DNA of 64,000 bases, from the NCBI RefSeq assembly GCF_003605635.1, contig NZ_QMDW01000009.1, forward strand, positions 1-64,000, written 5' to 3'. How positions within the stretch are numbered: position 1 is the stretch's first letter; the number at the start of each line of letters is the position of its first letter. Shown piece after piece: positions 17,818 through 33,686 of the stretch. The DNA comes from Halonotius pteroides. GTDB taxonomy: Archaea > Halobacteriota > Halobacteria > Halobacteriales > Haloferacaceae. A program made the translations under genes and the position numbers. The notes below the pieces were generated by a model. The model ran no database searches and had not been told where the DNA came from. It saw only the letters and a list, made by a program, of their open reading frames with translations.

Positions 17818-18189
17818 TTACTCCTCGACCGGGAACGCCTCGTGGAGCGTATCGTGGGTGTCGCTCAGCCCCTCAAAGACGCTCTCGCCTTGGGCGGTCA
17901 GTCGGTGGATTGCCAGTTCGGCGTCGCGAACGGCCACAAGTCGCCCGCGAAGATAGTCGTACTCCGGGTCGTCTGGGTCTGCGGTGGCGATCTCTTCTTC
18001 AAGATCGACGAGAGCGGCATCGAGATGACGCTCGATCGCCGACAGCGTTTCCGCCTCGGCCAGCGCGCCGATCGGGCCGGTGAGATGGCCCTCCAGTTCG
18101 TTCTCTGCATGCTCGCGGGCCGCGGTGTCTTCGGTTCCCAGTACGTTCATCAAGCCGAGTTTGAGTGCTTCGAGTTCGTGACAGCTCAT
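17818..18189 (-). CDS. DUF3209 protein of the cobalamin operon
   Basis: A 123-residue, mostly helical acidic protein beginning MSCHELEALKLGLMNVLG, which matches DUF3209, a small family that keeps company with haloarchaeal cobalamin genes. Cys3 and His4 at the N-terminus are the only obvious metal ligands. It is the last gene of the tight cbiT-to-DUF3209 operon and starts five bases after the cbiX stop. Its position beside the chelatase suggests a role with cobalt or CbiX, which is inference from context only. Confidence 0.8.
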   Translation of the reverse strand: MSCHELEALKLGLMNVLGTEDTAAREHAENELEGHLTGPIGALAEAETLSAIERHLDAALVDLEEEIATADPDDPEYDYLRGRLVAVRDAELAIHRLTAQGESVFEGLSDTHDTLHEAFPVEE

Positions 18190-18194
18190 ATGGC

Positions 18195-19415
18195 TTACAG
18201 TGTTTGATCAACTAAGTCGCTGACGATGCGGTCGCGGTCAAGATGCGACGAGACAATGCGTTCGGTGTCATCCGCGTCGACGCCGCCGTACCAGACGTTT
18301 TCGGGGTAGACAGCGACGATCGGCCCTTCGCCACAGCGGCCGAGACACGAGCTTCGGGTGATGCGGGCGTCACACTGCTCGGAATCGCGGGCTGCCTGCC
18401 GGAGGCCCTCAAGAACAGCCGGCGCGCCGTCGGCCGCACAGGTCTGGTTGGTACAGACCGTGACGTGTTTTTCCGGGGCGTCGTGGGTGTGTGGCTCGTC
18501 GTCGATATCGCTGCGATCGGCGTGGGTCTCTTGATGGGTCAGCGCACGCAACATCGCTCGCGCGCCGCCGGTGTCCTCCTCGTAGCCGGTGAGATCGACC
18601 TTGTACTTGCAGGTGTCACAGGACATTTCGACGCTATCGGTGCGGGCCTCCTGCCAGCGGTCGCCGAGTACGTCCAACAATCGCGAATCAGTGCCGAGTG
18701 GGTCGCCAGCCAGCGCGTTGACGTACGGGTACTCGTCGTCGAACTCGTCGGTCCACTCCCGAATCCGACCGGTCAGGACGCCGTCGCCGAGCATGTAGGG
18801 GACAACGACGACGGCGTCCGGTCGCTGTTTGGCGAGTGTCGACAGCGAGTCGTCCAGCGTCGGCTCGGTGATCCCGATGAAGGAGGCTTCGACGGTGCTG
18901 AACTCACGGCCCTCATGTAGGAGGCGGGCGAGCTTGTGGAGATCAGCGTTGGCGTCGGGATCACTGGAGCCGCGGCCACAAACAACGACGGCGACATCGT
19001 CGTCTTCACGATCGACGCCGAGTTCTGACTCGACGGCGGCCGCGCGGTCGTCAAGCAGGTCGACGATAGCCGGGTGGATCCCGAGGTGTGCGCCGTTGTT
19101 GATCTCGACTTCCTGGGCTGAGCGTGCCCGCTGGACGGCCAACGGCACATCATTTTTGACGTGACTGGCCGCAAACAGCGAGAGCTGGACGACGGTGACC
19201 GAGCCGACGGAGCCGGCCAGTCCCTCGATGCCGTCCTCGATGGCTGGCTCGGCGAGCTCCAGAAAGGCGGCATCAACCGGGATCTCCAGGCGGTCTTCGA
19301 GCATCGCCGCTAGCTCGCGGACCTGCTCGTTTGACTTCTCGCGGCGGGAGCCGTGGCCGACCAGCAGGACGGCCTCGTTGTCGACGCTTTCGATGGTGTC
19401 GTGGAGCTGACTCAT
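18195..19415 (-). CDS. cbiX: Sirohydrochlorin cobaltochelatase CbiX with C-terminal [2Fe-2S] domain
   Basis: A 406-residue long-form class II chelatase that inserts Co2+ into sirohydrochlorin. Two CbiX halves are fused. The first keeps both metal histidines, in 'LLVGHGSR' (His21) and 'SLFAASHVKNDVP' (His85). The second, aligned at 'VVCGRGSSDP' and 'PYMLGDGVLTGR', has lost both. After a CDTCKYKVDL segment comes a histidine-rich linker and a thioredoxin-like ferredoxin domain (about 318-400) with 'VCTNQTC' and 'SSCLGRCG', able to hold a [2Fe-2S] cluster. It overlaps the upstream gene by four bases and is followed five bases later by DUF3209. Confidence 0.93.
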   Translation of the reverse strand: MSQLHDTIESVDNEAVLLVGHGSRREKSNEQVRELAAMLEDRLEIPVDAAFLELAEPAIEDGIEGLAGSVGSVTVVQLSLFAASHVKNDVPLAVQRARSAQEVEINNGAHLGIHPAIVDLLDDRAAAVESELGVDREDDDVAVVVCGRGSSDPDANADLHKLARLLHEGREFSTVEASFIGITEPTLDDSLSTLAKQRPDAVVVVPYMLGDGVLTGRIREWTDEFDDEYPYVNALAGDPLGTDSRLLDVLGDRWQEARTDSVEMSCDTCKYKVDLTGYEEDTGGARAMLRALTHQETHADRSDIDDEPHTHDAPEKHVTVCTNQTCAADGAPAVLEGLRQAARDSEQCDARITRSSCLGRCGEGPIVAVYPENVWYGGVDADDTERIVSSHLDRDRIVSDLVDQTL

Positions 19416-20134
19416 GCTTCGAACTGTGAGCGATCAAAGTCGACATCGGTTGCCTGATCGAGACTCTGCACCAGTTTGCGGCGGCGACTCGGCGCGAACA
19501 GGCCTGTTGCCGCCGTCTCCTCGTAGAGCCACATGCCGAACTCGGCGGCTGCGTCGTCGTCGACACCGAACCAGTAGCCGCCCGAAGAGGTCTCCGATAG
19601 CTCCCCGTACGGCGCCTCGGCAGGGCAGTCATCGAGCAGCTCCTGGACGAGTTCGAGCAGCGCGGCGTCGTCGTGGACAAACGAGACACCGACGGTGCCG
19701 CTGGAGGACTTGAAACAGATGGTGCCACAGCCCTCCAGGATGCCGCGCAGTAGATCGCGGCGGTGATCGGCGAACGCCCCGAAGCGGTAGTTGCCGCGGC
19801 CATCGACCGGGAGGCCGAGCGCGCCGCTCATCCCAAAGAGATCGTCGCCCGTAACCGCGACCGTGTACTCGTCTTCACTCTTCGTGATATCGGTGTTGTG
19901 CGCGTAGTCGCGGGTGGTTTGCTCGTGGTCGATCTCGCTGCCGACGATCTCGCTGAGCGTCTCGGCGGCGGCCTCGTCGTTGGTCGTCACGGTGAGGCGG
20001 TCACGCTCGATATCGCCGTTGCCGGCGACCCGGCCCCAGAAGTAGGCCGTCGCCGGGTGGCCCGCCAGCAGGTCGTCGGGAACGCCGACGCCGAGCGGTG
20101 GCCGGTCGGCTTCGGCCTCCTCGGTGGCGGTCAT
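19412..20134 (-). CDS. Cobalamin-operon protein with two degenerate LAGLIDADG-like motifs
   Basis: A 240-residue protein with no named function. Two similar halves each begin with a LAGLIDADG-like helix: FWGRVAGNG (residues 32-40), followed by DIERDRLTVTTND, and LRGILEGCG (129-137), followed by TICFKSSSGTVGVSF. In a homing endonuclease the eighth position of each motif is the metal-binding Asp; here it is Asn39 and Cys136. The fold may thus be kept without cleavage activity. No intein splice motifs are present. It overlaps the ferredoxin gene upstream and cbiX downstream by four bases each, so it is made together with corrin enzymes. Binding DNA, metal or tetrapyrrole are all possible. Confidence 0.8.
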   Translation of the reverse strand: MTATEEAEADRPPLGVGVPDDLLAGHPATAYFWGRVAGNGDIERDRLTVTTNDEAAAETLSEIVGSEIDHEQTTRDYAHNTDITKSEDEYTVAVTGDDLFGMSGALGLPVDGRGNYRFGAFADHRRDLLRGILEGCGTICFKSSSGTVGVSFVHDDAALLELVQELLDDCPAEAPYGELSETSSGGYWFGVDDDAAAEFGMWLYEETAATGLFAPSRRRKLVQSLDQATDVDFDRSQFEA

Positions 20135-20397
20135 TTCTCGACCTCCTCGACGACGATGGCGTTGGTCGGACAGGCCGCGGCGGCCTGCCGGGCCTCGTCG
20201 ATCCGATCGTCGTCGAAGGTGGCGATCACGTCGCCGTCTTCCTCTCGGATCTCGCCGTCGCCGTCGTACACTGGATCGCCCGCGGGGTCGATGGTGGCGA
20301 GGCCGTCGTCGTCCTCGACAAACCGCGGATCGCGAGTCAGGCAGGCGAAGATACCGTCGCAGGGCTCCTTCTTGAGGGTGACTTCGTAGGTTGTCAT
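20131..20397 (-). CDS. Three-cysteine ferredoxin of the cobalamin operon
   Basis: An 88-residue small ferredoxin. The cluster motif is C13-x5-C19 (CDGIFAC) with a late CP at Cys76 (AAACPTNAI). The cysteine normally found at position 16 is Ile, leaving three ligands, which fits a [3Fe-4S] cluster. The mid-section (residues 29-63) is an acidic insertion. The ATG chosen leaves one base after the cbiH2 stop; an upstream ATG would overlap that gene. The four-base overlap with the next gene indicates co-translation. It may feed electrons to a reductive step in corrin synthesis, but the partner is unknown. Confidence 0.85.
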   Translation of the reverse strand: MTTYEVTLKKEPCDGIFACLTRDPRFVEDDDGLATIDPAGDPVYDGDGEIREEDGDVIATFDDDRIDEARQAAAACPTNAIVVEEVEK

Positions 20398-20398
20398 G

Positions 20399-21334
20399 TT
20401 AGTAATCGTATTTCGTCTCGTAGCCACGCGGTGTGACCATCCGGTCGTCCCAGACGTAGGTCTCCTCGTTGCCGACGAGGATCGTCGTCGTCATGTCGAT
20501 GATCTCCGCTTCGCCGAGCGCCTCGAGCTCGCCGAGCGTCGTGATCATTACTTCCTCGTCCTCGCGGCCCGCGCCGTGAACGATGCCGACCGGCGTATCG
20601 GGGTCGCGGTGAGCGAGCAGGATCTCACAGCATTTCTGGAAGTTCTCGCGGCGCTTGCGGCTCCAAGGGTTGTAGATGACGATGGTGAAGCTCTCGCCGG
20701 CCGCCGAATGGAGCCGGGATTCGATCTCCGGCATCGGAACCAGATGGTCGGACAGTGAGATCGACACCGTGTCGTTGACCAGCGGCGCGCCCAGCAGCGC
20801 ACTGCATGACTGGGCGGCGGGGACGCCGGGGACGACCTCGTAATCGACCATCGAGGCGGTCGCCCCCTTCGATTCGATGATTTCGAGGGCCAGCCCCGAC
20901 AGGGCGTAGACGTTGGGGTCGCCGCTGCCGATGATCGCCACGTCGTTGCCGGCGAGCGCGCGGTCGATGGCCTCCTCCGTCCGGGAGACCTCGCCACACA
21001 TCGGCGTGTCGTAGAGTTCGTCGGCCTCCTCGGTGATCTCGTCGGGCAGGAGTTCGATATAGGTCGTGTAGCCGACGATGTGTTCGGCCTCCAGCAGCGC
21101 GGCGCGAGCGCGCTGGGTCATCCCCTCTGGATGACCGGGGCCGAGACCGACGGCCGTCAGCTGGCCGGGGTCGGCGTCGAAATCGTCGACCGTCGACCCG
21201 ATCTTCTCGTCGACCGACTCCTGTTTCGACGAGCCGTCGCTGGATTTCGCCGTACAGCCGCCAGAGTCGTCGCCTGTTGATTCGGTTGCCTGTTCCGTTG
21301 TCGTTTCCGCCGTCGTGTTGGTGTCCGTACTCAT
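20399..21334 (-). CDS. cbiH: Cobalt-factor III / precorrin-3B C17-methyltransferase (second copy)
   Basis: A 311-residue tetrapyrrole methylase. The SAM motif 'VGLGPGHPEGMTQRARAAL' starts near residue 62, with 'AIIGSGDPNVYALSG', 'VPGVPAAQSCSALLGAP', 'SISLSDHLVPMPEIE' and 'IYNPWSRKRRENFQK', all typical of CbiH/CobJ, which methylates C17 and contracts the ring. About 55 residues of disordered, D/S/T-rich tail with a lone Cys (SGGCTAKSS) precede the domain. The C-terminus 'VWDDRMVTPRGYETKYDY' matches archaeal CbiH. It lies two bases after cbiH1. Whether both copies do the same reaction is not known. Confidence 0.9.
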   Translation of the reverse strand: MSTDTNTTAETTTEQATESTGDDSGGCTAKSSDGSSKQESVDEKIGSTVDDFDADPGQLTAVGLGPGHPEGMTQRARAALLEAEHIVGYTTYIELLPDEITEEADELYDTPMCGEVSRTEEAIDRALAGNDVAIIGSGDPNVYALSGLALEIIESKGATASMVDYEVVPGVPAAQSCSALLGAPLVNDTVSISLSDHLVPMPEIESRLHSAAGESFTIVIYNPWSRKRRENFQKCCEILLAHRDPDTPVGIVHGAGREDEEVMITTLGELEALGEAEIIDMTTTILVGNEETYVWDDRMVTPRGYETKYDY

Positions 21335-21336
21335 GG

Positions 21337-22230
21337 TTAGAAATCCTCCACGTCACGCCCGCCGCGCGGGGTGACAAGGAACGTCCGGTAGTCGTTGCTC
21401 CAGGTTTCCGTTTCGTGGTTGCCGATGATCAGCGAGGTGCCCATCCCTGACACCTTGTCGTCGTGGGCGGTCGCCTCGCCGAGTGTCGTGATGACGTGGC
21501 TCTCGCCGTTGCGGCCGGCGTCGTCGCGGCCGGCGTCGTTGACGATCGAGACCAGCGCGTCGTCAGTCCGCTCCTCGCGGACGATGTCGACGGCCCTCTC
21601 GTAGTTACGCCAGCAGTTGTAGAGGACGATGACGAAATCGCTGATCGCGGCGGCGCGCAGTTTCTCCTCGATCTCTTCCCACCCGCGCCACTTGTCCGAG
21701 AGTGAAATCGTACAGAAATCGTTGCACAGCGGCGCGCCGACCATCGCCCCGCCGCCAAGCGCGGCGGTGACGCCGGGGACGATCTCGATGGGAACGTCCG
21801 TCGCGGCTTCCTCCTCGGCCATCTTGAAAATCAGGTCGGATTTGCCGTACACCGAGGGGTCGCCACCTGAGACGTGGGCCACGTCGTCGCCGGCGCGGAC
21901 GCGCTCGAAGGCGACCTTCGCCAGCTCGATCTGTCTGCCCATCGTCGAGCGGATGATCTCCTGTTCGTGGCCGTTCTCGCGGGTGACTCTACCCTCGTCG
22001 TCGACCTCCTCGGCGGGCGGCAGCGTGCCGTCTTCCCGCAAAAACGCCTGATAGAGGTCGGAGGCGATGACGCAGTCGGCTGTTTCGATGACTGTCTTTG
22101 CGCGTTTGGTCATGTCGGCCGGCAGGCCAGGGCCGATGCCGACCACCGAGAGGACGCCGAGGTCGTCGGGGCGGTCGGCCGCCGTCGCCGCGGTGTGCTT
22201 CCCGTCGGCATCGACTGAGTCGCTGCTCAT
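21337..22230 (-). CDS. cbiH: CbiH-like precorrin methyltransferase (first copy)
   Basis: A 297-residue tetrapyrrole methylase of the CbiH/CobJ type. Motifs include 'VVGIGPGLPADMTKRAK' near residue 29, 'HVSGGDPSVYGKSD', 'VPGVTAALGGGAMVGAP', 'TISLSDKWRGWEEIEEKL' and 'VLYNCWRNYERAVDIV'. Compared with the copy just downstream it has an insertion of polar residues after 'YQAFLREDGTLPPAEE' and changes in the substrate loop, so it may act on another intermediate. The start ATG overlaps the cbiG stop by four bases, which fixes the start and excludes a longer upstream frame. Confidence 0.88.
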   Translation of the reverse strand: MSSDSVDADGKHTAATAADRPDDLGVLSVVGIGPGLPADMTKRAKTVIETADCVIASDLYQAFLREDGTLPPAEEVDDEGRVTRENGHEQEIIRSTMGRQIELAKVAFERVRAGDDVAHVSGGDPSVYGKSDLIFKMAEEEAATDVPIEIVPGVTAALGGGAMVGAPLCNDFCTISLSDKWRGWEEIEEKLRAAAISDFVIVLYNCWRNYERAVDIVREERTDDALVSIVNDAGRDDAGRNGESHVITTLGEATAHDDKVSGMGTSLIIGNHETETWSNDYRTFLVTPRGGRDVEDF

Positions 22231-23228
22231 TGGCCGATCGCCACCGTCACCTCGTTGTCGTAGCTCTGTTTTTCGAGCAGGAGTTCCTGCTCGCGGCCGC
22301 CGGCGATGGCCGAGGCCTCCGAGATGCCCGGCCAGCCGATCAGTTCCTTCGATTTCGATGGGCTCGGTCCCTCGTGGTCGAGCAGGGTCTCCTTGTTGAA
22401 GACGACGACGCCGAGGTCGAGTTCCTCGGCGGCTTCGAGCAGCCCCTCCTCGTCTTCTTTTCGCGTTGCCGTCGCAACGAACTCCACATCGTCCATCTGG
22501 TAGTTGGTTTCGGCGAGGGCGTTCTCCCACGCCGTGATGAACGAGTCAGCGGCCGCGCCGGAGACGCTGCCGGTGCCGAGGACGATTCCCTCGTCTTTGT
22601 TCCGCTTCAGAACGGTCACGTCGTCGCCGACCAGCACGGCTTGTGGGCCGTCGAGCCGGGCGACGGGGCCGAGTTCGTCGTCCAGCACGGCGAGATTGGT
22701 CTGGATCGTCGAGCGGCCGTTGACGACGTGGGTGTCCATCGCCTTCGCGCGGGCTTCGACACCCTGCTTGCCGGCGGCCTCGCTCGCGGTCGTCATCGCC
22801 GGGATCGCGCCCATCGTGGCGAGATCCTGGGCGACCTGGTTCGCGCCGTGGTGGCCGCCGGTGATCGGGATCGCCCACGTGAGTTCCTCGTCGACGACAC
22901 AGATCGCGGGGTCGTCCCACTTGTCGTCGAGCAGGTGGGCGGTTTTCCGCATCGCAATGCCGCTGGCCATCAGGCCGACAAAGCAGTCGTACTCGCCCCA
23001 GTGCTCGTCGAAGACCTCGCCGTGGTACTCGATAATGTCGATGGACTCGTAGCGGTCGCCGAGTTCGGCCTCGATCTCTTCGGCGGTGTCCATCTTCCGA
23101 CCGAAGGAGATAATCGCGATCTCCTCGGCGACCTCGCCGTCGCTGTCGGGCGTGCTACAGTGGCCACCGCTGTCGGAGTTGTCGCTCGTCTCGCTGTTCG
23201 TCGTCGTGGATTCGTTATCCGTGCTCAT
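22227..23228 (-). CDS. cbiG: Cobalt-precorrin-5A hydrolase
   Basis: A 333-residue CbiG, which opens the delta-lactone of cobalt-precorrin-5A and releases acetaldehyde. The N-terminal domain has 'DCFVGLMASGIAMRKTAHLL', 'VVDEELTWAIPITGGHHGAN', and the C-terminal CbiG domain contains 'LGTGSVSGAAADSF' and 'GWPGISEASAIAGG'. The first 30 residues are an S/T/D/E-rich tail containing SGGHC, similar in style to the tail of cbiH2. Four-base overlaps with cbiF and cbiH1 place it firmly in the operon. Confidence 0.92.
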   Translation of the reverse strand: MSTDNESTTTNSETSDNSDSGGHCSTPDSDGEVAEEIAIISFGRKMDTAEEIEAELGDRYESIDIIEYHGEVFDEHWGEYDCFVGLMASGIAMRKTAHLLDDKWDDPAICVVDEELTWAIPITGGHHGANQVAQDLATMGAIPAMTTASEAAGKQGVEARAKAMDTHVVNGRSTIQTNLAVLDDELGPVARLDGPQAVLVGDDVTVLKRNKDEGIVLGTGSVSGAAADSFITAWENALAETNYQMDDVEFVATATRKEDEEGLLEAAEELDLGVVVFNKETLLDHEGPSPSKSKELIGWPGISEASAIAGGREQELLLEKQSYDNEVTVAIGQ

Positions 23229-24175
23229 TGGGTTGTCTCCGCTGGATCGGTCTGTTCGCTGTCCGTTGATTCGTTCTCTGCATCAGCCTCGCCATCGCTG
23301 TCGGGGCCACGATCAGCCCAGCCATCGTAGAGGTAAGATCGCTCGTAGCCCGCGCCGGTCACGGCGTCGCCGATGATCACCATCGCGGAGGCGCGGTAGC
23401 CGGCCTCCTCGATCTTGTCGCCGATGGTGCCGATGGTACCGACGAGTACGTCCTCGTCGGGCCAGGAGGCGTGGTAGACGACGGCGACCGGAATCTCGGG
23501 GTCGTGGCCGTCGTCGATGAGTCGATCCATCGTGTCGGCGACGGCGTGGGTACCGAGATAGATACAGGTCGTCACGTCGCCCATCTCGACAAACTCGCCG
23601 ATGTGGTCGTCCTCTTCGGTCAGCGTCTTGCCCTGCGGGCGGGTAAACGCGACGTGGTTCGAGACCTCGTTGAGCGTAAGCTGGGTTCGCAGGGTCGCAC
23701 TCGCCGCAAACGCCGAGGTGACACCGGGGATGAAGAACGTCGAGACGCCTTCATGTTCGAGGGCGTCCATCTGTTCGAGCGCCGCGCCGTAGATCGCCGG
23801 ATCGCCGCTGTGGAGTCGGACGACGTTGTCGCCGGCCTCGTGGGCGTCCCGCATCAGCGGGATCAACTCCTCGAGATCCTTACCGATTGAGCTGACCGTC
23901 TCGGCGTGGTCGCAGTATTCCTCGAGGAGTTCGCTGTTGACCAGCGAGCCGGCGTGGACGACAAGGTCGGCCTCTTCCAACAGTTCCTTGCCGGCGACCG
24001 TCAGCAGGCGTGGGTCACCGGGGCCGGCTCCGACGAACGGAATTCCCTCCTGCTCGTCGCCGGCATTGTGCTCAATGATCCGGTCGTCGAGTTCGGCGCG
24101 TCGCTGCTCGCCTTGGGCGTTGATAGCCGATTGTGGATCGGTGTCGTCGCCGTCAGTCTCAGCTGGCTCGCTCAT
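23225..24175 (-). CDS. cbiF: Cobalt-precorrin-4 C11-methyltransferase
   Basis: A 316-residue CbiF/CobM. Motifs: 'FVGAGPGDPRLLTVAGKELL' near residue 46, 'DLVVHAGSLVNSELLEEY', 'VRLHSGDPAIYGALEQMDA', 'IPGVTSAFAASATLRTQL' and 'IYLGTHAVADTMDRLID'. It adds the C11 methyl group during ring decoration. Both termini carry acidic, S/T/E-rich tails (about 40 and 25 residues), which is common in haloarchaeal versions. It overlaps cbiL and cbiG by four bases. Confidence 0.94.
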   Translation of the reverse strand: MSEPAETDGDDTDPQSAINAQGEQRRAELDDRIIEHNAGDEQEGIPFVGAGPGDPRLLTVAGKELLEEADLVVHAGSLVNSELLEEYCDHAETVSSIGKDLEELIPLMRDAHEAGDNVVRLHSGDPAIYGAALEQMDALEHEGVSTFFIPGVTSAFAASATLRTQLTLNEVSNHVAFTRPQGKTLTEEDDHIGEFVEMGDVTTCIYLGTHAVADTMDRLIDDGHDPEIPVAVVYHASWPDEDVLVGTIGTIGDKIEEAGYRASAMVIIGDAVTGAGYERSYLYDGWADRGPDSDGEADAENESTDSEQTDPAETTQ

Positions 24176-24891
24176 GCGCGCTCCCCCACCCCGGTCGCGT
24201 CGCCAAGCTCCTCGAATCGGGCGGTCGCGGGTTCGATATCGAGGTCGCGCTTGACCGCATACGCCAGCGTGTAGTAGTCGCGCTCGTCGATGTCCGCTGG
24301 ATCGTCAGTGATGACCGTCTCGCCTTGCTCCATGTAGAGCCGACGCCCGTAGGTTACGTCGTAGCCAGCGGCGACCAGCTTCTCGTGGGTCGCCGGTGCG
24401 TCGGTGATCTTGAACAGGATCATCCGGTCGGGGCCGGTCGGCGCGTGGCCGTTGGCAGCCTCCCGTAGCGCGAGCCCCGCGCCGGCTTCGATCTCGACAT
24501 CAAACGCGGTCGCAAACGCCGTCATCGCGCTGACGCCGGGGACGATCTCGACGTCAACGTCGGGATGGAACGCATCGAGCGTTCGCCGCAGATGGCCGAA
24601 CGTCGAGTAGACGTTCGGGTCGCCGAGCGTGACGAAGGCGGCGTCGTTGTCGCTGGCCTGCGGGGCAATCTCTGCGGCGGCCTCTTTCCACGCCGCCCGT
24701 AGCTTCTCCTCGTCGCGTGTCATCGGGAAGTCGAGGTCGCCGATTTTCGATTCCGGAACGTGGTTCAGCGCGACCGTCCGCGAGAGCCGGCCGGGCGAGT
24801 AGACCACGTCAACGCTTTCCAGCACCTCCTTGCCGCGCACTGTCACCAGGTCGGCCTGGCCGGGGCCGAGGCCGATACCGTAGAGTGTCAC
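24172..24891 (-). CDS. cbiL: Cobalt-factor II C20-methyltransferase
   Basis: A 239-residue CbiL/CobI. It begins directly with the SAM motif 'YGIGLGPGQADLVTVRGKEV' and continues 'DVVYSPGRLSRTVALN', 'VTLGDPNVYSTFGHLRRTL', 'IVPGVSAMTAFATAFDV' and 'ILFKITDAPATHEKL'. It methylates C20 of cobalt-factor II, the first methylation after cobalt insertion. It overlaps the cbiT stop by four bases (ATGA), so start and operon order are well defined. Confidence 0.94.
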   Translation of the reverse strand: MTLYGIGLGPGQADLVTVRGKEVLESVDVVYSPGRLSRTVALNHVPESKIGDLDFPMTRDEEKLRAAWKEAAAEIAPQASDNDAAFVTLGDPNVYSTFGHLRRTLDAFHPDVDVEIVPGVSAMTAFATAFDVEIEAGAGLALREAANGHAPTGPDRMILFKITDAPATHEKLVAAGYDVTYGRRLYMEQGETVITDDPADIDERDYYTLAYAVKRDLDIEPATARFEELGDATGVGERA

Positions 24892-25490
24892 CGTGTGGCC
24901 TCCGCTGGTTCGCCGTTGTCGCCGTCGCTTTCGTCGTCACTGCCGCTCGCACTGCCAACGAGCATGTAGACCGGGTTGTCGGAGTTGAAGCTCGTCGCGC
25001 CGGCGAGTTCGTAGCCGTGGCTGACCTGGAACTGGACGACCTCCTCTAAGATCTCTCGCTCGCGGAACGCCTCGGTCGCCTGGCCGGCGATTTCGAGCCG
25101 CGAGACGTTCATGACGATCCGGTCGACCTCGGTGTTGACGGCGTGATCGAGGACGGCCTCGAAGTTCCGGCTGCCGCCGAGAAAGAGGGCGTCGGCGTCC
25201 TCTGGCAGCCCCTCGGGGGCTTCGGCGTTTCGAAGGTCGATATCGGCGCTGATTGACTCCTTGTTGGCCGCAAGGTTCTGTTCGGTCACGTCGAGACGGT
25301 CGGCCTTGCGTTCGAGCGCGGTCACGCGGCCGGCGCGGCGAGCGGCTTCGATGGTGACCGCGCCGGTACAGGAGCCGACCTCAGCGAAGTGATCATCCGG
25401 GCCGAGGTCAAGTTTGCCGAGCGTGACCGACCGGACTTCCGACTTGGTCGGCCCCGCTTTGGCGTCATGTGGCAGTGCGATGGGCATCAT
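24888..25490 (-). CDS. cbiT: Cobalt-precorrin-6B C15-methyltransferase (decarboxylating)
   Basis: A 200-residue CbiT, which methylates C15 and decarboxylates the C12 acetate. The Rossmann SAM site is 'FAEVGSCTGAVTIEAAR' (about residues 36-52), with 'VTALERKADRLDVTEQN', 'ALFLGGSRNFEAVLDHA' and 'RIVMNVSRLE'. The usual GCGTG is GSCTG here. ATGATG begins the protein; a TATA-like element on this strand (caataaaacaa complement, 25510-25520) is about 25 bases upstream, so this is the promoter-proximal, leaderless first gene of the operon. It diverges from a TFS-like gene 199 bases away. Confidence 0.92.
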   Translation of the reverse strand: MMPIALPHDAKAGPTKSEVRSVTLGKLDLGPDDHFAEVGSCTGAVTIEAARRAGRVTALERKADRLDVTEQNLAANKESISADIDLRNAEAPEGLPEDADALFLGGSRNFEAVLDHAVNTEVDRIVMNVSRLEIAGQATEAFREREILEEVVQFQVSHGYELAGATSFNSDNPVYMLVGSASGSDDESDGDNGEPAEATR

Positions 25491-25509
25491 CACGACTCTC
25501 AAACCGAAC

Positions 25510-25520
25510 CAATAAAACAA
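25510..25520 (-). promoter_or_regulatory. TATA-like box of the cbiT operon
   Basis: The minus strand reads ttgttttattg. It is centred about 25 bases before the cbiT start, which predicts a leaderless transcript for the ten-gene operon. No cobalamin riboswitch-like B12 box was recognised between here and the divergent gene. Confidence 0.45.
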
Positions 25521-25647
25521 TTGTGCTTGGGGTAGAGAAAGTTAGCTTGTATCCGGATCACACTGACTACCGGAACCTAACGGTGTCCCGTTGCCGATAT
25601 CGCAGCACAGACAGCACGAACAAGTGTCTGGCACTCAGAGCGGTCAG

Positions 25648-26172: not shown

Positions 26173-27495
26173 TCACGGCTCGATCCGGTCGAGAAACCGG
26201 TCAAAGGCCCCGCTCGCGGCGTGCACGTGAGCGTAGGTCCCGAGCGAGTCGTAAGCCATGAGACCGTCGTGGTCGCCGTCGATGCCGTCGCCACGGCGCA
26301 CGTCGAATGCGAAGCGGGCGTCGCTGTCGACGCTGGCCTCCGAGTAGTGGAACTCGTGGCCACGGAGCGTTTCGCCACGGTCGGCCGTGAGCGTCCCTGT
26401 CGTCGCATCGAGTTCGATGTGATCGAGTGCCTGATACCGGTCACACATCGTCACGTCCGCCGGGAGAATCCCAGCCATCGCGTGACCCTCGCCGTCAGTC
26501 GTCGTCAGCGACTGCGCCATCGTCATCAGACCGCCGCACTCGCCGAACACCGACAGACCCTCGCTGGCGCGGTCGGCGAGATCGTCCAGCGTCGGCGACG
26601 ACGCCAACTCTTCGGCGTGGAGTTCTGGATACCCGCCCGGCAGATAGACGCCATCGCAGTCGGGGAGTGGATCGCCAGCGACCGGCGAGAACGTCCTGAC
26701 GGTTGCCCGCTCGCGGAGGCGTTCGACCGTCGCGGGATACCGGAAACAGAAGGCCGCGTCGCTGGCGACGGCGACAGTTGCGCTCGTCGGCTCGGCTGCG
26801 GGCGAGCCGGATGCGTCCATTTCGGCGTCGCTGCCTCTGGGTTCGCGCGCAACCTCGACCAGCCGTTCGGTTTCGAGGTTTTCGGCCGCCTCGTCGAGTG
26901 CGTCGTACGGGAGGGCGGCCTCGTCGCCCATTTCGAGACCGAGATGCCGATCCGGGATTTCGAGGTCGCTAGACGGTTGAATCCGCCCGAAATATGCCAT
27001 CTCGTCCGGCAGCGCGTCCCGAATCCCCTCGGCGTGGCGGCCGCCGTGGGCGCGCTGTGCGACGACGCCCGCCACGTCGATCTCGCGGTCGATGGTCGCC
27101 GCATACTCTCGAAAGCCGTAGGCCGTGGCGGCGACGCTCTCCATGCCGGCCTTGGCGTCGACGACGAGCACGACCGGCAGATCGAGGGCTTCGGCGACCA
27201 TCGCAGTGCTTGAGCCATCGCCGTCGTAGAGGCCCATCACCCCCTCGACGACGCAGATATCGCCCTCGCCGCGGGCGTAGTTGCGAGTAAGGCCGGCGTC
27301 GCCTTCGAGCCACAGGTCGAGCGTACGGGAGGGCCGGCCCGCAATCGCCTCGTGGTGGCTCGGATCGATGAAATCGGGGCCGGCTTTGGCTGGCTGGACG
27401 GAGTAGCCCGCGCCGTCGAGTGCGCGAATGATGGCGAGCGTGGCGACCGTCTTGCCGACGCCGGAGCTGACGCCGCCGAGGACGAAGCCGTTCAT
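26173..27495 (-). CDS. cbiA: Cobyrinic acid a,c-diamide synthase
   Basis: A 440-residue CbiA/CobB, which amidates the a and c side chains using glutamine and ATP. The N-terminal dethiobiotin-synthetase-like domain has the P-loop 'VLGGVSSGVGKTVATL' (residues 5-20) and 'DFIDPSHHEAIAGRPSRTLD'. The C-terminal glutaminase domain has the nucleophile in 'VFGECGGLMTMAQSL' and 'LRGHEFHYSEASV'. The ATG at the P-loop domain start is preferred over one 20 codons upstream. An 87-base gap separates it from vapC, so it may have its own promoter; its 3' end faces the TFS-like gene. Confidence 0.94.
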   Translation of the reverse strand: MNGFVLGGVSSGVGKTVATLAIIRALDGAGYSVQPAKAGPDFIDPSHHEAIAGRPSRTLDLWLEGDAGLTRNYARGEGDICVVEGVMGLYDGDGSSTAMVAEALDLPVVLVVDAKAGMESVAATAYGFREYAATIDREIDVAGVVAQRAHGGRHAEGIRDALPDEMAYFGRIQPSSDLEIPDRHLGLEMGDEAALPYDALDEAAENLETERLVEVAREPRGSDAEMDASGSPAAEPTSATVAVASDAAFCFRYPATVERLRERATVRTFSPVAGDPLPDCDGVYLPGGYPELHAEELASSPTLDDLADRASEGLSVFGECGGLMTMAQSLTTTDGEGHAMAGILPADVTMCDRYQALDHIELDATTGTLTADRGETLRGHEFHYSEASVDSDARFAFDVRRGDGIDGDHDGLMAYDSLGTYAHVHAASGAFDRFLDRIEP

Positions 27496-27582
27496 GCTGG
27501 TCTCTGGCTGGCTGACTGTGAGTGATACATTGTTGCGGTATACTGTGGTTGCCACCGAGTCATCAAAACCTGTTCGAAGCTC

Positions 27583-27987
27583 TCAGGAGTCCTTTCGGTA
27601 GGCATCGATATCGACGACGCGCCGGGTCTCGGGATGCGTGCAATCGCTGTCACTGGAGACGAGCGTCGCGTCCAGTTCGTCGGCGACTGCCACGACGAGC
27701 GCGTCAATCGCAGTCAGGTTTGGGCCTTCCGGGCCGATCTCGTCGGCGATCTCCGCCGCCCGGACGGCCGTCGATGCGTTTGTCTCGACGACATCGACCC
27801 ACGAGAGTTCGGCGCGTGCGTCCTCGATATCCGTGGGCGCGCTGCTGTGAACGGTGCCGAGCAGGTATTCGGTATAGATCGGTGCCGGAGCGACGAACTG
27901 TTCCTCGGCGTGATCAAGCAGGTACTCTGCGGCTGCCTCGACACCGTTGCCGTAATCGATCAGAAACGATGCATCGAGAACTCTCAT
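27583..27987 (-). CDS. vapC: PIN-domain ribonuclease toxin (VapC-like)
   Basis: A 134-residue PIN-domain protein. The acidic catalytic quartet is visible: Asp5 (LDASFLID), Glu40 (YTEYL), Asp95 (TAIDALVVA) and Asp113 (SSDSD). VapC toxins cleave tRNA or rRNA. Its ATG overlaps the vapB-like stop by four bases, the normal antitoxin-then-toxin order. The pair sits between cbiE and cbiA in the cobalamin region, on the same strand. All catalytic positions are intact, so it is likely functional. Confidence 0.9.
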   Translation of the reverse strand: MRVLDASFLIDYGNGVEAAAEYLLDHAEEQFVAPAPIYTEYLLGTVHSSAPTDIEDARAELSWVDVVETNASTAVRAAEIADEIGPEGPNLTAIDALVVAVADELDATLVSSDSDCTHPETRRVVDIDAYRKDS

Positions 27988-28235
27988 TCGTCGGTTCGGG
28001 CCTCTGTCATCGCCGATACGCGGGAGTCAGACTCTTGGTTTCCTCGCTCGTGAACCGCACGCATCGCCTCGGCACGATCCGTGCCGCTGAACGCCCCGAA
28101 GCCGGCGAGCAGGTCGCGGTCGTCGTCCAATAGCCGTTCGAGCACGTCGTTGAACGATTCGCCCTCGTGCCGCCGCTGTTCGAGTTCGCGTTTGACTGAC
28201 TCGCTAACACGAATCTGTTTGTTGGCTGTACCCAT
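27984..28235 (-). CDS. vapB: VapB-like antitoxin (haloarchaeal DUF7557-like)
   Basis: An 83-residue antitoxin. The N-terminal part 'KQIRVSESVKRELEQRRHEG' followed by 'ESFNDVLERLLDDD' is a ribbon-helix-helix-like DNA-binding region. The C-terminal part 'LLAGFGAFSGTDRAEAMRAV' is the toxin-binding segment commonly seen in haloarchaeal antitoxins paired with PIN toxins. It starts 41 bases after the cbiE stop and just below a perfect inverted repeat, as expected for autoregulation. Confidence 0.88.
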   Translation of the reverse strand: MGTANKQIRVSESVKRELEQRRHEGESFNDVLERLLDDDRDLLAGFGAFSGTDRAEAMRAVHERGNQESDSRVSAMTEARTDE

Positions 28236-28239
28236 TGTA

Positions 28240-28259
28240 TGTCAACGTAGTCGTTGACA
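28240..28259. promoter_or_regulatory. Perfect inverted repeat operator upstream of vapB
   Basis: TGTCAACG-tagt-CGTTGACA: eight-base perfect arms with a four-base spacer, ending five bases before the vapB ATG. An AT-rich box on the minus strand (gattaattc, 28261-28269) lies immediately upstream, so the repeat spans the predicted transcription start. This is the position expected for repression by the VapB or VapBC complex. Confidence 0.65.
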
Positions 28260-28276
28260 CGAATTAATCGTTTGGC

Positions 28277-29041
28277 TCACTCGACGTCTCGACGGACTGC
28301 CAGCACCGACAGATCCGAAAACGGCGTTGAGTCGGCTCCAGACCCGCCGGCATGGTCGGCAAGGTCGCCCAGCGAACGTCGACTGATCGACTCGTCGTCG
28401 TGAGTGAGCCTTTCGAGTACGAGCGCGTCCAGCGCGGAATCAGCACCTGCGTTGAGCAGGTTGGCCGCGATATCGCCGGGCATCCAGTCGAACGGCCGCG
28501 GCAACACGAGCAGGTGTCTGTCGCCGACGGCGGCTGTCAGCCGCGCGACATCGTCGCTGATGTCGCCACTCTTGTGCAGCGTGACGAACTCGGTGTCCTC
28601 CATCGGCGTGCGGGCGCGACTCGCCGCGATCTGGAGCGACGAGATACCGGGAATCACGCGAACCGGCCGGTCGACCACGTCCTGCACCTTGCCGACGAAC
28701 TGGTAGCCGGAGTGGTTTGGATCGCCCATCAGCACCGCCGTCCCGCGCTCGCCGCTGGCAACGCGGTCGGCGAACGTCGTCAGGGCCTCCCGTTCGTCCT
28801 TGTAACCGCAGGTCAACAGGTCGGCGTCGGTTTCATGGGTGATGAAGTCGACGACGGTCTCGAAGCCGACGACGACATCAGCGTCTTCGATAGCCTGCCG
28901 CCCCCGCGGCGTGAGATAGTCGAGATTGCCGGGGCCGATACCGACCGCGTGAACGGGGGCAGCGTCAGCATCGAGCGTTTCGGGTGCAGCCGCTGCAACG
29001 GTCGCCGGATCGGGGCCGGAATCGAGGTCGTACCCGCTCAT
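28277..29041 (-). CDS. cbiE: Cobalt-precorrin-7 C5-methyltransferase
   Basis: A 254-residue CbiE. After a 30-residue acidic/alanine tail the SAM motif 'VGIGPGNLDYLTPRGRQAI' appears, followed by 'DVVVGFETVVDFIT', 'VLMGDPNHSGYQFVGKVQD' and 'VIPGISSLQIAASRA'. It works with CbiT (the two are fused in CobL of aerobic organisms); here cbiT is encoded about 3 kb downstream. Its ATG overlaps the cbiC stop by four bases. It is the last gene before the toxin-antitoxin pair. Confidence 0.93.
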   Translation of the reverse strand: MSGYDLDSGPDPATVAAAAPETLDADAAPVHAVGIGPGNLDYLTPRGRQAIEDADVVVGFETVVDFITHETDADLLTCGYKDEREALTTFADRVASGERGTAVLMGDPNHSGYQFVGKVQDVVDRPVRVIPGISSLQIAASRARTPMEDTEFVTLHKSGDISDDVARLTAAVGDRHLLVLPRPFDWMPGDIAANLLNAGADSALDALVLERLTHDDESISRRSLGDLADHAGGSGADSTPFSDLSVLAVRRDVE

Positions 29042-29781
29042 GAGTTCGACTCCAGATCGATCTCGCCGTCGCGGGCGTCGCTGGCGACGTGGATCAACTC
29101 GTTTGTCAGCGCGGCCGCCAGCCCGCTGCCGCCGCGGCGACCGACGTTCGTGATCGCCGGCACGTCGTACTCGGCAGCGACCTCACGGATTCGCTCGCGG
29201 CTCTCGACGGCTTTCACGAAGCCGACCGGCGTGGCGACGACGACGGCCGGTCGGGTGCCGTTTTCGATACAGTCCGCGAGCGCGAAGGCGGCCGTCGGCG
29301 CGTTGCCAACAACGGCGATGGCGTCCTCGTAGACGCCCTGCTTGTCGAGTTCGAGCACCGACGCGGCCGTCCGTGTCATCCCCGTCTCCTTGGCGAGTTT
29401 TGCGCCGTTGCCGATGGCCTTGCGCTTCTCGCAGTTGTGGCCGCGGCCCGTCACGCCGGCTTTCGACATCGTGATATCGGTGACGATGGTCGTCTCGCCG
29501 TTGACGGCGCGTGCGCCGGCCCGGATCGGCGCGGCGGCGTCCGCGTTGCCGTCGCTGTCGGTGCCGGTGAACCGGAGTAGATGCTGGAACTCGATGTCGC
29601 CCATCGAATGGACGGCCTTCTGGCGGAACCGATCAGCAAGCGTCTCGTCGGGGACGAACCCCCGGACGATATCCATGCTCGTTTCGGCGATATCCATCGC
29701 CTCCTCGGTCGTCGCGCCGAGGTCGGCGTACTCGTCGTCGACGCCGTCGCTGTCGCCTGATGCCGCGTTCTGTTCAGTCAT
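29038..29781 (-). CDS. cbiC: Cobalt-precorrin-8 methylmutase
   Basis: A 247-residue CbiC/CobH, which moves the C11 methyl to C12 to give cobyrinate. Key parts are 'AVHSMGDIEFQHLLRF' with the catalytic His, 'IVTDITMSKAGV', 'AVVGNAPTAAFAL' and 'PAVVVATPVGFVKAVESRE', ending 'VGRRGGSGLAAALTNELI'. An N-terminal acidic tail of about 25 residues is present. It overlaps the cobN stop by eight bases and the cbiE start by four. Confidence 0.94.
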   Translation of the reverse strand: MTEQNAASGDSDGVDDEYADLGATTEEAMDIAETSMDIVRGFVPDETLADRFRQKAVHSMGDIEFQHLLRFTGTDSDGNADAAAPIRAGARAVNGETTIVTDITMSKAGVTGRGHNCEKRKAIGNGAKLAKETGMTRTAASVLELDKQGVYEDAIAVVGNAPTAAFALADCIENGTRPAVVVATPVGFVKAVESRERIREVAAEYDVPAITNVGRRGGSGLAAALTNELIHVASDARDGEIDLESNS

Positions 29782-32700
29782 CAGCAGCCTCCGGGGCTGG
29801 GTCGCTCGCTCGTGCTTCGAGGTCGCCCTCCACGCTGAGGTTGATATCGCGGAGCTGATCGACGGTTTCGTCGTCGGCGTCCCACAGCTCGCGGTCGATG
29901 GCCTCCAGCAGCGTGTCGGTGATCGATTCGAGCGCCCAGGGGTTCACGTCGCGCATCCATTTCTGTCTGTCGTCGTCGAGAGCGAACTTCTCGGCGACGT
30001 CTTCCCAAAGCGTGTCGCTGATGACGCCGGTGGTGGCGTCCCAGCCGAGCACGACGTCGACCGTCGTCGAGAGGTCGCCCGCGCCCTTGTAGCCGTGATC
30101 CTCCATCGAATCCAGCCAGTCGGGATTGAGGACGCGGGCCCGCATCGCCTTCCGGACTTTCTCCTCGTTGGTATACACGTCGACGTTCTCGGGGTTCGAG
30201 GAGTCGCCGACGTAGGAGGCGGGTTCGCTGCCCGAAATCTCGGAGACAGCCGAGATAAAGCCGCCGTGGAAGGCGTACCAGTCCGAGGAGTCGAGTTCGT
30301 CCTGCTCCATCGTGTCCTCGATTTTGACCGTCGCATCGACGCTCGATAGGCGTCGCTCGAAGCTGTCGTGGGCCTCGCTGACCTTCCCACGTTTGCCCAT
30401 CGCGTAGCCACCCCACTGGACGTACACGTCGGCCAGATCCGCGCGGTCGTCCCAGTTGCCCTCGTCGACGGCCTTGTTCGTGCCCGCGCCGTAGCCGCCC
30501 GGCCGGGTCGTGAAGACGCGCTCGGTCGCCGCGCTCTTGGCCTCGTCGGGATCGAGCCCTTCGGCTTCCAGCTCGTCGGCCTCCTCCTCGACGTGTTTCT
30601 TGATGTAGTTCATCTCGTGGGGTTCGTCCAGATCGACGACCGCCGAAACGGCGTCGTGAATGACACCGGCTGCGGCGGGGAACGCATCGCGGAACAGTCC
30701 CGAGACGCGTGTCGTCACGTCGATTCGTGGGCGGCCGAGTTCATCAAGGTCGATTGGCTCCACATTGTCGATCCGGCCAGCGTCCGTCCAGACCGGCCGC
30801 ACGCCCAGCATCGCCAGCACCTGACCGATGGTCTCGCCCTTCGTTCGCACCGTGGGCGTCCCCCAGGCGACGACGCCGATCTCCTCGGGATATTCGTCGT
30901 GTTCGTCGTGGTGGCGGTCGAGGACGCCCTCGGCGACGTTTTTTCCGACCTGCCACGCGTATTTCGCCGGCACCTTGCGCGGATCGAGTGTGTAGAAATT
31001 GCGCGCTGTCGGCAGCAGATCGACGCCGCCACGCGTCGGCGCGCCGGAACCGCCTGGCGGGACGTAGTCACCGTTGAGCGCGTCAGCGGTTCGGGGAATT
31101 TCGTCTTCGGCTCCCTGCACTCGCGGGGCGGCCTCCTCGCAGATGAACGCGAGTGCCTCCCGGAGGTCGTTGTGTGCGCCGGAACTCGCCCGCCCGTCGC
31201 CGAGCGTGTCGATATCGACGACGAGTAGATTGATGTTGACCTCGTCGTCGGGGCCGGCTTCTCGCTCGGAGTCCGGCACATCGAAGTCGTTGGCTGCGAG
31301 GGTTTCGACCAACTGCACACAGGTCTCGTGGACATAGTCGGCCGCCTCGGCGTATGTCATCCCGAGATCGTCGGCGTACTCGCCGGGACGGTTTCGCATC
31401 GCGTCGTAATCGACGCCTAGCGCGCCGGCGACGCTCTCGCGGAGGCTCGGCGTGTCGCCGTTTTCGAGCCGCGTGAGCGCGACCAGATACTCGACCAGCC
31501 GGTCGTCGACCGGCGGTTCGCTCATCGTATGCAGGCCGAGCCGGATCTGGGTCGTCTTTACGTCCGTCAGGTACTCGTGAACCCGCTCGACCAGTTCGTC
31601 GATCCCGACTTCGTCGCCATCGACATCGCCCTCGGCGAGCGTCGAGCCGGCCTCGTCGGGGCCGCGAACCTCCATCTGTTCGTCGATTTCGCCGCTCGTC
31701 CCGAGTTCGACCGCGAGATCGAGGTCGTCGACGCGCTCACGGATGAGGTCTTCGAGCTGTTCGCCGCTGTCGCTGCGGGCGTCTTCCATCCCCGCCTCGC
31801 GGTACTCATTGGCGAGTTCCTCCAACTCGCTGAGTTCGTCGTAGGTGCCGGCGTTGGCCATGACCGGCGTCAGGTAGTCGACGATGGCAGCGTAGGAACG
31901 ACGCTTCGCCTGGGTTCCCTCGCCGGGGTTGTTGACGATGTACGGATAGACGTTCGGCAGATCGCCGATCAGCTGGTCTGGCGCGCTCGCGCCGTTGAGC
32001 CCGACGGTTTTACCGGGCAGCCACTCCAGCGAACCGTGGGTACCGAGGTGGACGACGGCGTCGGCCTCGAAGCTGTTTCGCAGCCAGGCGTAGAACGCGT
32101 AGTAGTCGTGTGGCGGCTGGAGATCCGAATCGTGATAGACCTTCGCGGGATCCATCCCGAACCCGCGCGGCGGCTGGACGGTGACGAGCACGTTGCCGAA
32201 CTCCGCGCCAGGGATCGCAAACGGCCGGTCGGGTGGGTCGCCCCACTCCTCGGTGATGTTCTCCTGAAATCGCTCGTCGGCGTCGGCGAACCACTCGCGG
32301 TACTGGTCAGTGGAGACGACATCGACCGAGCGGTCACGCACGTCCTCAGGGGCGACCCAGCGGTTGTCCAGTGTGAGCTGGCTGGTGAGCGTGTCGATCA
32401 GTTGCTGGCCCGACGCTGGGCGGCTGTCGCCGAGGTCGTAGCCGCGAGCGTCGAGTTCCTCAAGAAGGTTGATCGTGCTCTCCGGGGAGTCGAGCCCGAA
32501 AGCTGTCCCGATACCGTCGTCGCTCGGCGGGTAGTTGTGCAGGACGACGGCGACGGTTTTGTCGTCGTTGTCGAGATAGCGGAGTCGCGCCCAGTTGACC
32601 GCCAGCCGGGCGGCGTGATCGACGCGCTCTTGGATCGGGAAGTGGTGTTTCGGCGCGCTGCCGATGTCGGCGGCGTCGTCCATACGCTCCTTGCCGGAGA

Positions 32701-33655
32701 TCGGATGGGTGATGACGTTGCCGTCGAACTCGGGGAGTGCGACCGAGAGGGCGAGTTCGAATCCCATCACGCCGGTGTCGCTGGCCTCGTAGCGCGACCG
32801 CGAGCGCATCGTCGTGATCGTCTGGAGAACGGGTACGCCGAGGCGGTCGAGGAAGACATCCTCGGCCGAATCGCCCTCGTCGCTCGCCGAGCGGCCGCGT
32901 TCGTCCATCGACAGCGAGAACATGAACGAGGAGAGGACGGCATCGACGACTGGCTCGCCGTCTTCCAGCAGCCAGTTGTCGGTCACCCACTCGGCGTTCT
33001 CCTGGCCCTCCTCGTCGGCGGCCGGATTACAGAAGACCGGAAGGGCGTTCGCACCCTGCGATTCGAGCGCGCGAACCTGTGAATCGACGTAGCGGGTGTT
33101 CTCGTGTGTCCAGTGAGATTCGTAAAACCAGATCGCAACGGTCGGTTTCTCGGGGTCGAACGTCTCGCGGAGGGCGTCGTACTCGATGCCGGGGTGGTCG
33201 GGGTGATAGACGCCTTCGGTCGGGAGCTCTGTCGGGTCGTCGTACTCGGTCTCGACGCCGCCGTACTCGCTGGCGAGGAACCGACAGCAGTGTTCGACGT
33301 TTATCGTGCCGCCGCGTTCCAGGTACTCGTAGATGTGGTCGCGGTCGGCGTCGGCGACGGAGGTGTCCTCGAAGGCGAAGGCGTCGCCGGTTCCCTTGAC
33401 GATCAGCGGGACGCCAAGTTCGCGCAGGCGATCGACAGCGTACTCGTAGCCGGGCATGCTGTCCTCGCCGCCGTGGAGCCAGAGAACGACCGCCGCCGCA
33501 TCTTCGCAGTCGTCGACGAACGCCTCCACGTCCGTCTGGTCGTCGAGGTCGCCCTCCGAGCGGACGATGAGATCGATACCATCGAGTCGGCTCGCCGCCC
33601 GCTGGACGGAGCCGAGTTCGTTTTCGGTTGCCGTATAGAGGCCAATCCGTGTCAT
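29774..33655 (-). CDS. cobN: CobN-type cobaltochelatase large subunit
   Basis: A 1293-residue CobN/BchH-family protein, the large subunit of an ATP-dependent chelatase that inserts Co2+ into a corrinoid (or Mg2+ into protoporphyrin in BchH). Recognisable blocks include 'WLHGGEDSMPGYEYAVDRLR', 'YESHWTHENTRYVDSQ', 'ITHPISGKERMD', 'VVHLGTHGSLEWLPGKTVGL', 'PVWTDAGRIDNVEPI' and 'VVLGWDATTGVISDTLWEDV'. The start is set at MTRIGLYTA; an upstream extension would run into the divergent gene. Its start codon lies 31 bases from that of the ChlI/ChlD fusion, its likely ATPase partner. CobS and CobT are not present in the window. Confidence 0.94.
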   Translation of the reverse strand: MTRIGLYTATENELGSVQRAASRLDGIDLIVRSEGDLDDQTDVEAFVDDCEDAAAVVLWLHGGEDSMPGYEYAVDRLRELGVPLIVKGTGDAFAFEDTSVADADRDHIYEYLERGGTINVEHCCRFLASEYGGVETEYDDPTELPTEGVYHPDHPGIEYDALRETFDPEKPTVAIWFYESHWTHENTRYVDSQVRALESQGANALPVFCNPAADEEGQENAEWVTDNWLLEDGEPVVDAVLSSFMFSLSMDERGRSASDEGDSAEDVFLDRLGVPVLQTITTMRSRSRYEASDTGVMGFELALSVALPEFDGNVITHPISGKERMDDAADIGSAPKHHFPIQERVDHAARLAVNWARLRYLDNDDKTVAVVLHNYPPSDDGIGTAFGLDSPESTINLLEELDARGYDLGDSRPASGQQLIDTLTSQLTLDNRWVAPEDVRDRSVDVVSTDQYREWFADADERFQENITEEWGDPPDRPFAIPGAEFGNVLVTVQPPRGFGMDPAKVYHDSDLQPPHDYYAFYAWLRNSFEADAVVHLGTHGSLEWLPGKTVGLNGASAPDQLIGDLPNVYPYIVNNPGEGTQAKRRSYAAIVDYLTPVMANAGTYDELSELEELANEYREAGMEDARSDSGEQLEDLIRERVDDLDLAVELGTSGEIDEQMEVRGPDEAGSTLAEGDVDGDEVGIDELVERVHEYLTDVKTTQIRLGLHTMSEPPVDDRLVEYLVALTRLENGDTPSLRESVAGALGVDYDAMRNRPGEYADDLGMTYAEAADYVHETCVQLVETLAANDFDVPDSEREAGPDDEVNINLLVVDIDTLGDGRASSGAHNDLREALAFICEEAAPRVQGAEDEIPRTADALNGDYVPPGGSGAPTRGGVDLLPTARNFYTLDPRKVPAKYAWQVGKNVAEGVLDRHHDEHDEYPEEIGVVAWGTPTVRTKGETIGQVLAMLGVRPVWTDAGRIDNVEPIDLDELGRPRIDVTTRVSGLFRDAFPAAAGVIHDAVSAVVDLDEPHEMNYIKKHVEEEADELEAEGLDPDEAKSAATERVFTTRPGGYGAGTNKAVDEGNWDDRADLADVYVQWGGYAMGKRGKVSEAHDSFERRLSSVDATVKIEDTMEQDELDSSDWYAFHGGFISAVSEISGSEPASYVGDSSNPENVDVYTNEEKVRKAMRARVLNPDWLDSMEDHGYKGAGDLSTTVDVVLGWDATTGVISDTLWEDVAEKFALDDDRQKWMRDVNPWALESITDTLLEAIDRELWDADDETVDQLRDINLSVEGDLEARASDPAPEAADD

Positions 33656-33656
33656 C

Positions 33657-33664
33657 TTTATAAA
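33657..33664 (+). promoter_or_regulatory. TATA box shared by the cobN / chlID divergent promoter
   Basis: A palindromic tttataaa centred 26-27 bases before the ChlI/D ATG, so that gene would be leaderless. On the other strand the box lies only two bases outside the cobN start codon, so TBP bound here should hinder cobN initiation. A separate cobN box would have to lie near 33675-33685, where only weak candidates exist. Confidence 0.5.
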
Positions 33665-33686
33665 CCAGCGTTGTAGTAACGCAAGT

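Follow-up and report, generated by a model that had tools for sequence, protein, structure and literature searches.

What does a stand-alone protein with the fold of a homing endonuclease do in the middle of a haloarchaeal cobalamin operon? The question is raised by a gene of Halonotius pteroides in the window, the whole stretch of 64,000 nucleotides that was analysed. The gene belongs to a run with the order cbiT-cbiL-cbiF-cbiG-cbiH1-cbiH2-fer-LAGLIDADG gene-cbiX-DUF3209 (Table 1), with cbiA, cbiE, cbiC and cobN located upstream of the run, from 26173 to 33829. The open reading frame reported in the initial annotation is real and lies on the minus strand. The four-base overlaps described on both of its sides were read in the window sequence, as ATGA with the ferredoxin gene and ATGA with cbiX. 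The start of the ferredoxin gene is probably an internal ATG near 20397, and that of cbiT probably an ATG near 25490.

Table 1 Coordinates of the LAGLIDADG gene, its parts and its neighbours in the window
Feature	Position	Strand	Basis
DUF3209 protein, relative of solved TTHB059 (2EHW)	17818..18189	-	PF11483 E 2.6e-52
CbiX cobaltochelatase, MSCDTC motif and C-terminal [2Fe-2S] thioredoxin-like domain	18195..19415	-	PF01903 E 1.9e-47, PF01257 E 4.9e-7
LAGLIDADG-fold protein gene, 240 aa, stand-alone	19412..20134	-	ORF call, AlphaFold2 model, fold matches, ATGA overlaps
W188, last strand of second half	19571..19573	-	W in 112/116 relatives, Y in 4/116
C140-F-K142, first strand of second half	19709..19717	-	C140 and K142 each in 116/116 relatives
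LAGLIDADG-like helix 2, residues 119-136; last residue C136, second catalytic acid position	19727..19780	-	AlphaFold2, residue counts, LAGLIDADG_3 alignment
LAGLIDADG-like helix 1, residues 27-39; last residue N39, first catalytic acid position	20018..20056	-	AlphaFold2 secondary structure, residue counts
Ferredoxin (Fer4_15), directly upstream of LAGLIDADG gene in surveyed loci	20131..20427	-	PF13459 E 6.4e-14
cbiH2	20399..21334	-	PF00590, gene order
cbiH1	21337..22230	-	PF00590
cbiG	22227..23228	-	PF11760, PF01890
cbiF	23225..24175	-	PF00590
cbiL	24172..24891	-	PF00590
cbiT, first in run	24888..25520	-	Weak methyltransferase matches, synteny with annotated cbiT
Promoter dyad AAGCACAATTGTTT, family form AAACAAAATTGTTT, upstream of cbiT	25515..25528	-	Conserved in relatives

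LAGLIDADG fold and loss of the catalytic acids

A LAGLIDADG-type fold had been proposed from two helix-like segments, FWGRVAGNG and LRGILEGCG, each followed by a beta-rich segment. Structure prediction and fold comparison recovered this two-fold architecture. An AlphaFold2 model, for which 40 relatives served as input, reached a mean pLDDT of 87 and a pTM of 0.84. Its helices (H) and strands (E) are H27-39 E40-43 E46-51 H54-64 E68-77 E80-95 in the first half of the protein and H119-136 E137-142 E147-154 H157-168 E187-191 H193-204 H207-210 H215-227 in the second. The two halves are pseudo-symmetric, of the form alpha-beta-beta-alpha-beta-beta, and are joined at two LAGLIDADG helices. The segments FWGRVAGNG (residues 32-40) and LRGILEGCG (residues 129-137) close helices 27-39 and 119-136, and each is followed by beta hairpins and another helix, as in a LAGLIDADG half. 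A Foldseek search of the PDB returned 49 matches with E<=0.001. Their names are those of LAGLIDADG endonucleases, inteins that carry an endonuclease, a maturase of the LAGLIDADG type and WhiA (I-Tsp061I, WhiA, bI3 maturase, I-DmoI, PI-SceI/VMA1, TliVMA, PI-PfuI and I-WcaI). The best match was I-Tsp061I (2DCH, E 8e-8), followed by WhiA (3HYI, E 2.5e-7); TM-scores of the matches, normalised to query length, were moderate (0.38-0.58). Homing-endonuclease and intein proteins were also numerous among the matches in a viral library.

Evidence from profiles is independent of the AlphaFold2 model and agrees with it. PF14528 (LAGLIDADG_3) matches 24 of the 40 relatives (best E 2.5e-4), the window copy being unmatched. 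Alignment by hhalign of the family profile with haloarchaeal LAGLIDADG_3 domains gave an E of 3e-4 and placed C136 opposite the catalytic Asp. Its score was 31.4, whereas the highest score among 150 column shuffles was 27.3. Because of the 49 PDB matches, the LAGLIDADG_3 profile score unreached by the 150 shuffles and the PF14528 matches, the likeness goes beyond chance, and a LAGLIDADG fold of the 240-residue protein is nearly certain. Single-sequence searches of Pfam, NCBIfam and the PDB with the window copy gave nothing, and a profile search of PDB sequences with the gene family gave no usable match. Rusticyanin matches in sequence searches of the gene product were dismissed as noise. Profile comparison of the N-terminal and C-terminal halves detected no likeness between them (E 0.41); a repeat at the sequence level is no defining need for old pseudo-dimers, in which the symmetry is structural.

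In an active nuclease of this type an acidic residue closes both LAGLIDADG helices. Here position 136 is Cys in 115 of 116 relatives and Ser in one, and position 39 is occupied by S (63), D (40), N (7), A (4) or G (2). The earlier reading of Asn and Cys at the catalytic positions was therefore right for Cys, which marks the family, and wrong as a general statement for Asn, which is peculiar to the window copy and a few others. The gene occupies one operon position across haloarchaeal families, and the mobile context of introns, inteins or scattered sites was not found there. Since the second catalytic acid of a LAGLIDADG fold has been replaced by Cys, and the first position holds Ser, Asp or Asn, the protein is domesticated and almost surely non-cutting, as had been supposed; it is also strongly acidic (17 K+R vs 47 D+E). 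Residues C140, K142, G149, S151 and W188 presumably face the concave, formerly DNA-contacting side, judging by strand alternation and the contact pattern of I-CreI. Binding of a metal or a tetrapyrrole, which had also been suggested, may occur and would fit the invariant Cys136, Cys140 and Lys142 and the conserved Trp188; the role of Cys136 and Cys140 may be structural.

Operon position, distribution and a probable link to oxygen

A search of genome contigs yielded 69 loci of the family. The order cbiH2-fer-LAGLIDADG gene-cbiX is conserved in the surveyed loci, with DUF3209 usually next after cbiX. Among 145 Halobacteria genomes the gene is found in 75 of the 79 that carry CbiG and in none without CbiG. 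A search of 393 genomes of the phylum detected no homologue beyond the Halobacteria, and none was detected on bacterial plasmids. The link of the gene to cobalt-early corrin synthesis is strong, and the tie to cobalamin genes, first noticed in the window, applies to the homologues in general but not to one divergent relative (genome G134), located outside the B12 cluster. Some relatives bear the NCBI label 'cobalamin biosynthesis protein' (e.g. WP_254270146.1). In the account of the Haloferax volcanii cobalamin cluster given in PMC8305020, HVO_B0055 is listed as a cluster gene with function unassigned, and four such genes are proposed as candidates for two pathway gaps. Gene order makes HVO_B0055 the apparent counterpart of the LAGLIDADG gene. 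Among the papers searched, no other one contains the HVO_B0055 identifier, and none links LAGLIDADG with cobalamin biosynthesis.

Several clusters show peculiarities of their own. A cluster segment is present twice on a single Haloarcula rara plasmid (L064 and L065, NZ_CP119786.1), and the B12 cluster of genome G099 is divided between two places (L125, L126), with a second cbiG that is divergent and a LAGLIDADG gene in altered form. A PQQ-like beta-propeller protein, probably HVO_B0052, ends several haloarchaeal B12 clusters (L121:15304-16581, L124:5662-6963).

Four of the 79 CbiG genomes lack the gene (G008, G060, G441 and G294). COX1, the heme-copper oxidase, is missing from 4 of the 145, and from 4 of 391, genomes of the class, and three of these four carry CbiG. 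No CbiG genome other than these three (G008, G060 and G441) is without COX1, and all three are without the LAGLIDADG gene (Fisher p 5e-5). Also missing from them are fer, DUF3209 and the CbiX Fe-S domain; their CbiX is His-tailed. The missing oxidase, together with small size in two of the three, fits the strictly anaerobic, sulfur-respiring haloarchaea (PMC5437934). Absence of the gene from the three oxidase-less B12 makers tested suggests that it was probably re-used for B12 synthesis in air. In a tree built from cbiH1, cbiH2 and cbiX the clusters of the three genomes group as sisters (support 0.997), so that the contrast between aerobes and anaerobes may go back to one event or to gene transfer; no more than one or two evolutionary events underlie the aerobic link. 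The fourth genome, G294, is an aerobe with COX1 and holds both forms of CbiX. Its His-tailed CbiX (L121:12703-13644) lies exactly in the place of the gene, with fer on one side and the Fe-S CbiX on the other. The gene is therefore dispensable in an aerobe, and the second CbiX in its place ties its role to the CbiX step.

The two forms of CbiX end in a C-terminal Fe-S domain or in a His-rich tail, and they combine with the other genes in several ways. In locus L056 fer and the LAGLIDADG gene are present while the only CbiX of the cluster is the His-tail form. In G134 the pieces lie in three places, with fer in the cbi cluster, the Fe-S CbiX and DUF3209 on another contig and the LAGLIDADG gene on a third. 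This divergent copy (L123:9826-10422, 198 aa) keeps the Cys residues of the second half and is flanked by two cation diffusion facilitator genes, with a rhodanese gene adjoining. DUF3209 was found in 76 of the 145 genomes, namely the 75 with the LAGLIDADG gene and G294. This set equals exactly the 76 CbiG genomes with COX1, and DUF3209 occurs in 0 of the 3 without COX1. Its predicted structure matches TTHB059 (2EHW), which is encoded next to CbiX in Thermus; relatives also occur on Leptospira replicons. DUF3209 is a candidate aerobic partner of CbiX. As Thermus has the Fe-S CbiX and DUF3209 without the LAGLIDADG gene or fer, the CbiX part is separable, and the differing arrangements in L056, G134, G294 and Thermus show the same for the CbiX-DUF3209 and fer-LAGLIDADG gene pairs. 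Both pairs track aerobic hosts.

Alternative roles

It had been suggested that the protein regulates the cobalamin operon, as a domesticated LAGLIDADG protein that, like WhiA, still reads DNA. WhiA is the known precedent of such domestication (PMC3781837) and ranks second among the PDB matches, DNA binding is the ancestral trait of LAGLIDADG proteins and the conserved concave face would also suit it. Moreover, the cbiT promoter is overlapped by a palindrome, AAACAAAATTGTTTTA, that is strongly conserved. The four CbiG genomes that lack the gene nevertheless all retain this palindrome (L119, L120, L121 and, in a weaker form, L122), and its survival there is evidence against a dedicated repressor. 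The C-terminal HTH domain of WhiA is absent, the 240 residues being taken up by the LAGLIDADG fold and short tails, with no Pfam match. The marked acidity of the protein and the location of its gene inside the operon, translationally coupled to ferredoxin and the chelatase, also argue against regulation. The suggestion is weakened by these findings and we regard a regulatory role as unlikely. In Halorussus (L169) a MarR-family gene is located upstream.

Somewhat more doubtful still is that the protein, alone or with ferredoxin, fills the CbiD (EC 2.1.1.195) or CbiJ (EC 1.3.1.106) gap, as follows from the suggestion in PMC8305020. CbiD and CbiJ were found in none of the 145 Halobacteria genomes, the gene is among the four unassigned ones of the Haloferax cluster and the adjoining ferredoxin would suit a reductase. 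However, G008, G060 and G441 have the corrin set without CbiD, CbiJ, the LAGLIDADG gene and fer, so that the gene is not needed for these gaps; G294 likewise manages without it. The protein shows no sign of a binding site for SAM or NAD, it has no Pfam match to a CbiD or CbiJ family and its fold matches are LAGLIDADG proteins. Apart from the nucleases, LAGLIDADG proteins are not known to have enzymatic activity. Regulation and gap filling are both less likely than an accessory function linked to ferredoxin and CbiX. Highly improbable is a homing endonuclease still at work, or a recently degraded remnant of one sitting in the operon by accident: the fold, the PF14528 kinship and the Asp retained at the first catalytic position in 40 of 116 relatives would allow it, but the near-invariant Cys at the second position, conservation over the whole protein length, the constant operon place without scattered insertions and the absence of an intein or intron context argue against it.

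Proposed role and comparison with known systems

A LAGLIDADG protein that has lost its nuclease site has taken a fixed place in the haloarchaeal cobalamin operon of the cobalt-early (CbiX/CbiG) type. The explanation that we favour, with about evenly balanced confidence, is that it serves there as an accessory to ferredoxin and CbiX for corrin synthesis in air. It would most likely act off DNA, in contact with the adjoining ferredoxin and the CbiX cobaltochelatase. The former active site and the concave sheet, lined by Cys136, Cys140, Lys142, Trp188 and small residues, may hold a cobalt-tetrapyrrole intermediate or cobalt. Electrons from ferredoxin would keep the held cobalt-tetrapyrrole or cobalt reduced, and the oxygen-sensitive early corrin steps could thereby run in aerobic cells. 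More tentatively, we propose that a homing-endonuclease fold has turned into a metabolic protein that does not bind DNA, with cobalt or a cobalt-tetrapyrrole at the old nuclease site, and that together with ferredoxin it adapts the anaerobic, cobalt-early B12 route to oxygen. If true, this would be a rare recruitment of a selfish-element nuclease fold to primary metabolism, perhaps the first with a role off DNA. The protein is a concrete candidate for the means by which archaea living in air manage the oxygen-sensitive cobalt-early pathway, and the analysis sets the LAGLIDADG gene apart from the CbiD and CbiJ gaps. The genetics of Haloferax volcanii make these points directly testable.

The protein can be compared with four known systems. 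HVO_B0055 of H. volcanii, like the window gene, sits between cbiX and ferredoxin, but its description in PMC8305020 assigns it neither function nor fold. The LAGLIDADG endonucleases (I-Tsp061I 2DCH, I-DmoI and PF14528 inteins) share the two-fold alpha-beta-beta-alpha-beta-beta architecture, the two LAGLIDADG helices and a C-terminal RK-type motif. The present protein differs from them in the change of the helix 2 acid to Cys and of the helix 1 acid to Ser, Asp or Asn, in its fixation in a metabolic operon and in its acidity. WhiA (DUF199, 3HYI) is likewise a domesticated and presumably non-cutting LAGLIDADG protein, but it is a bacterial transcription factor with a C-terminal HTH, whereas the protein studied here is haloarchaeal and has no HTH. 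The cobalt-early operon of Thermus (pTT27) resembles the haloarchaeal one in its aerobic host, its CbiX with an Fe-S tail and the adjoining DUF3209, and differs in that CbiD is present while a LAGLIDADG protein and a small ferredoxin are not listed there.
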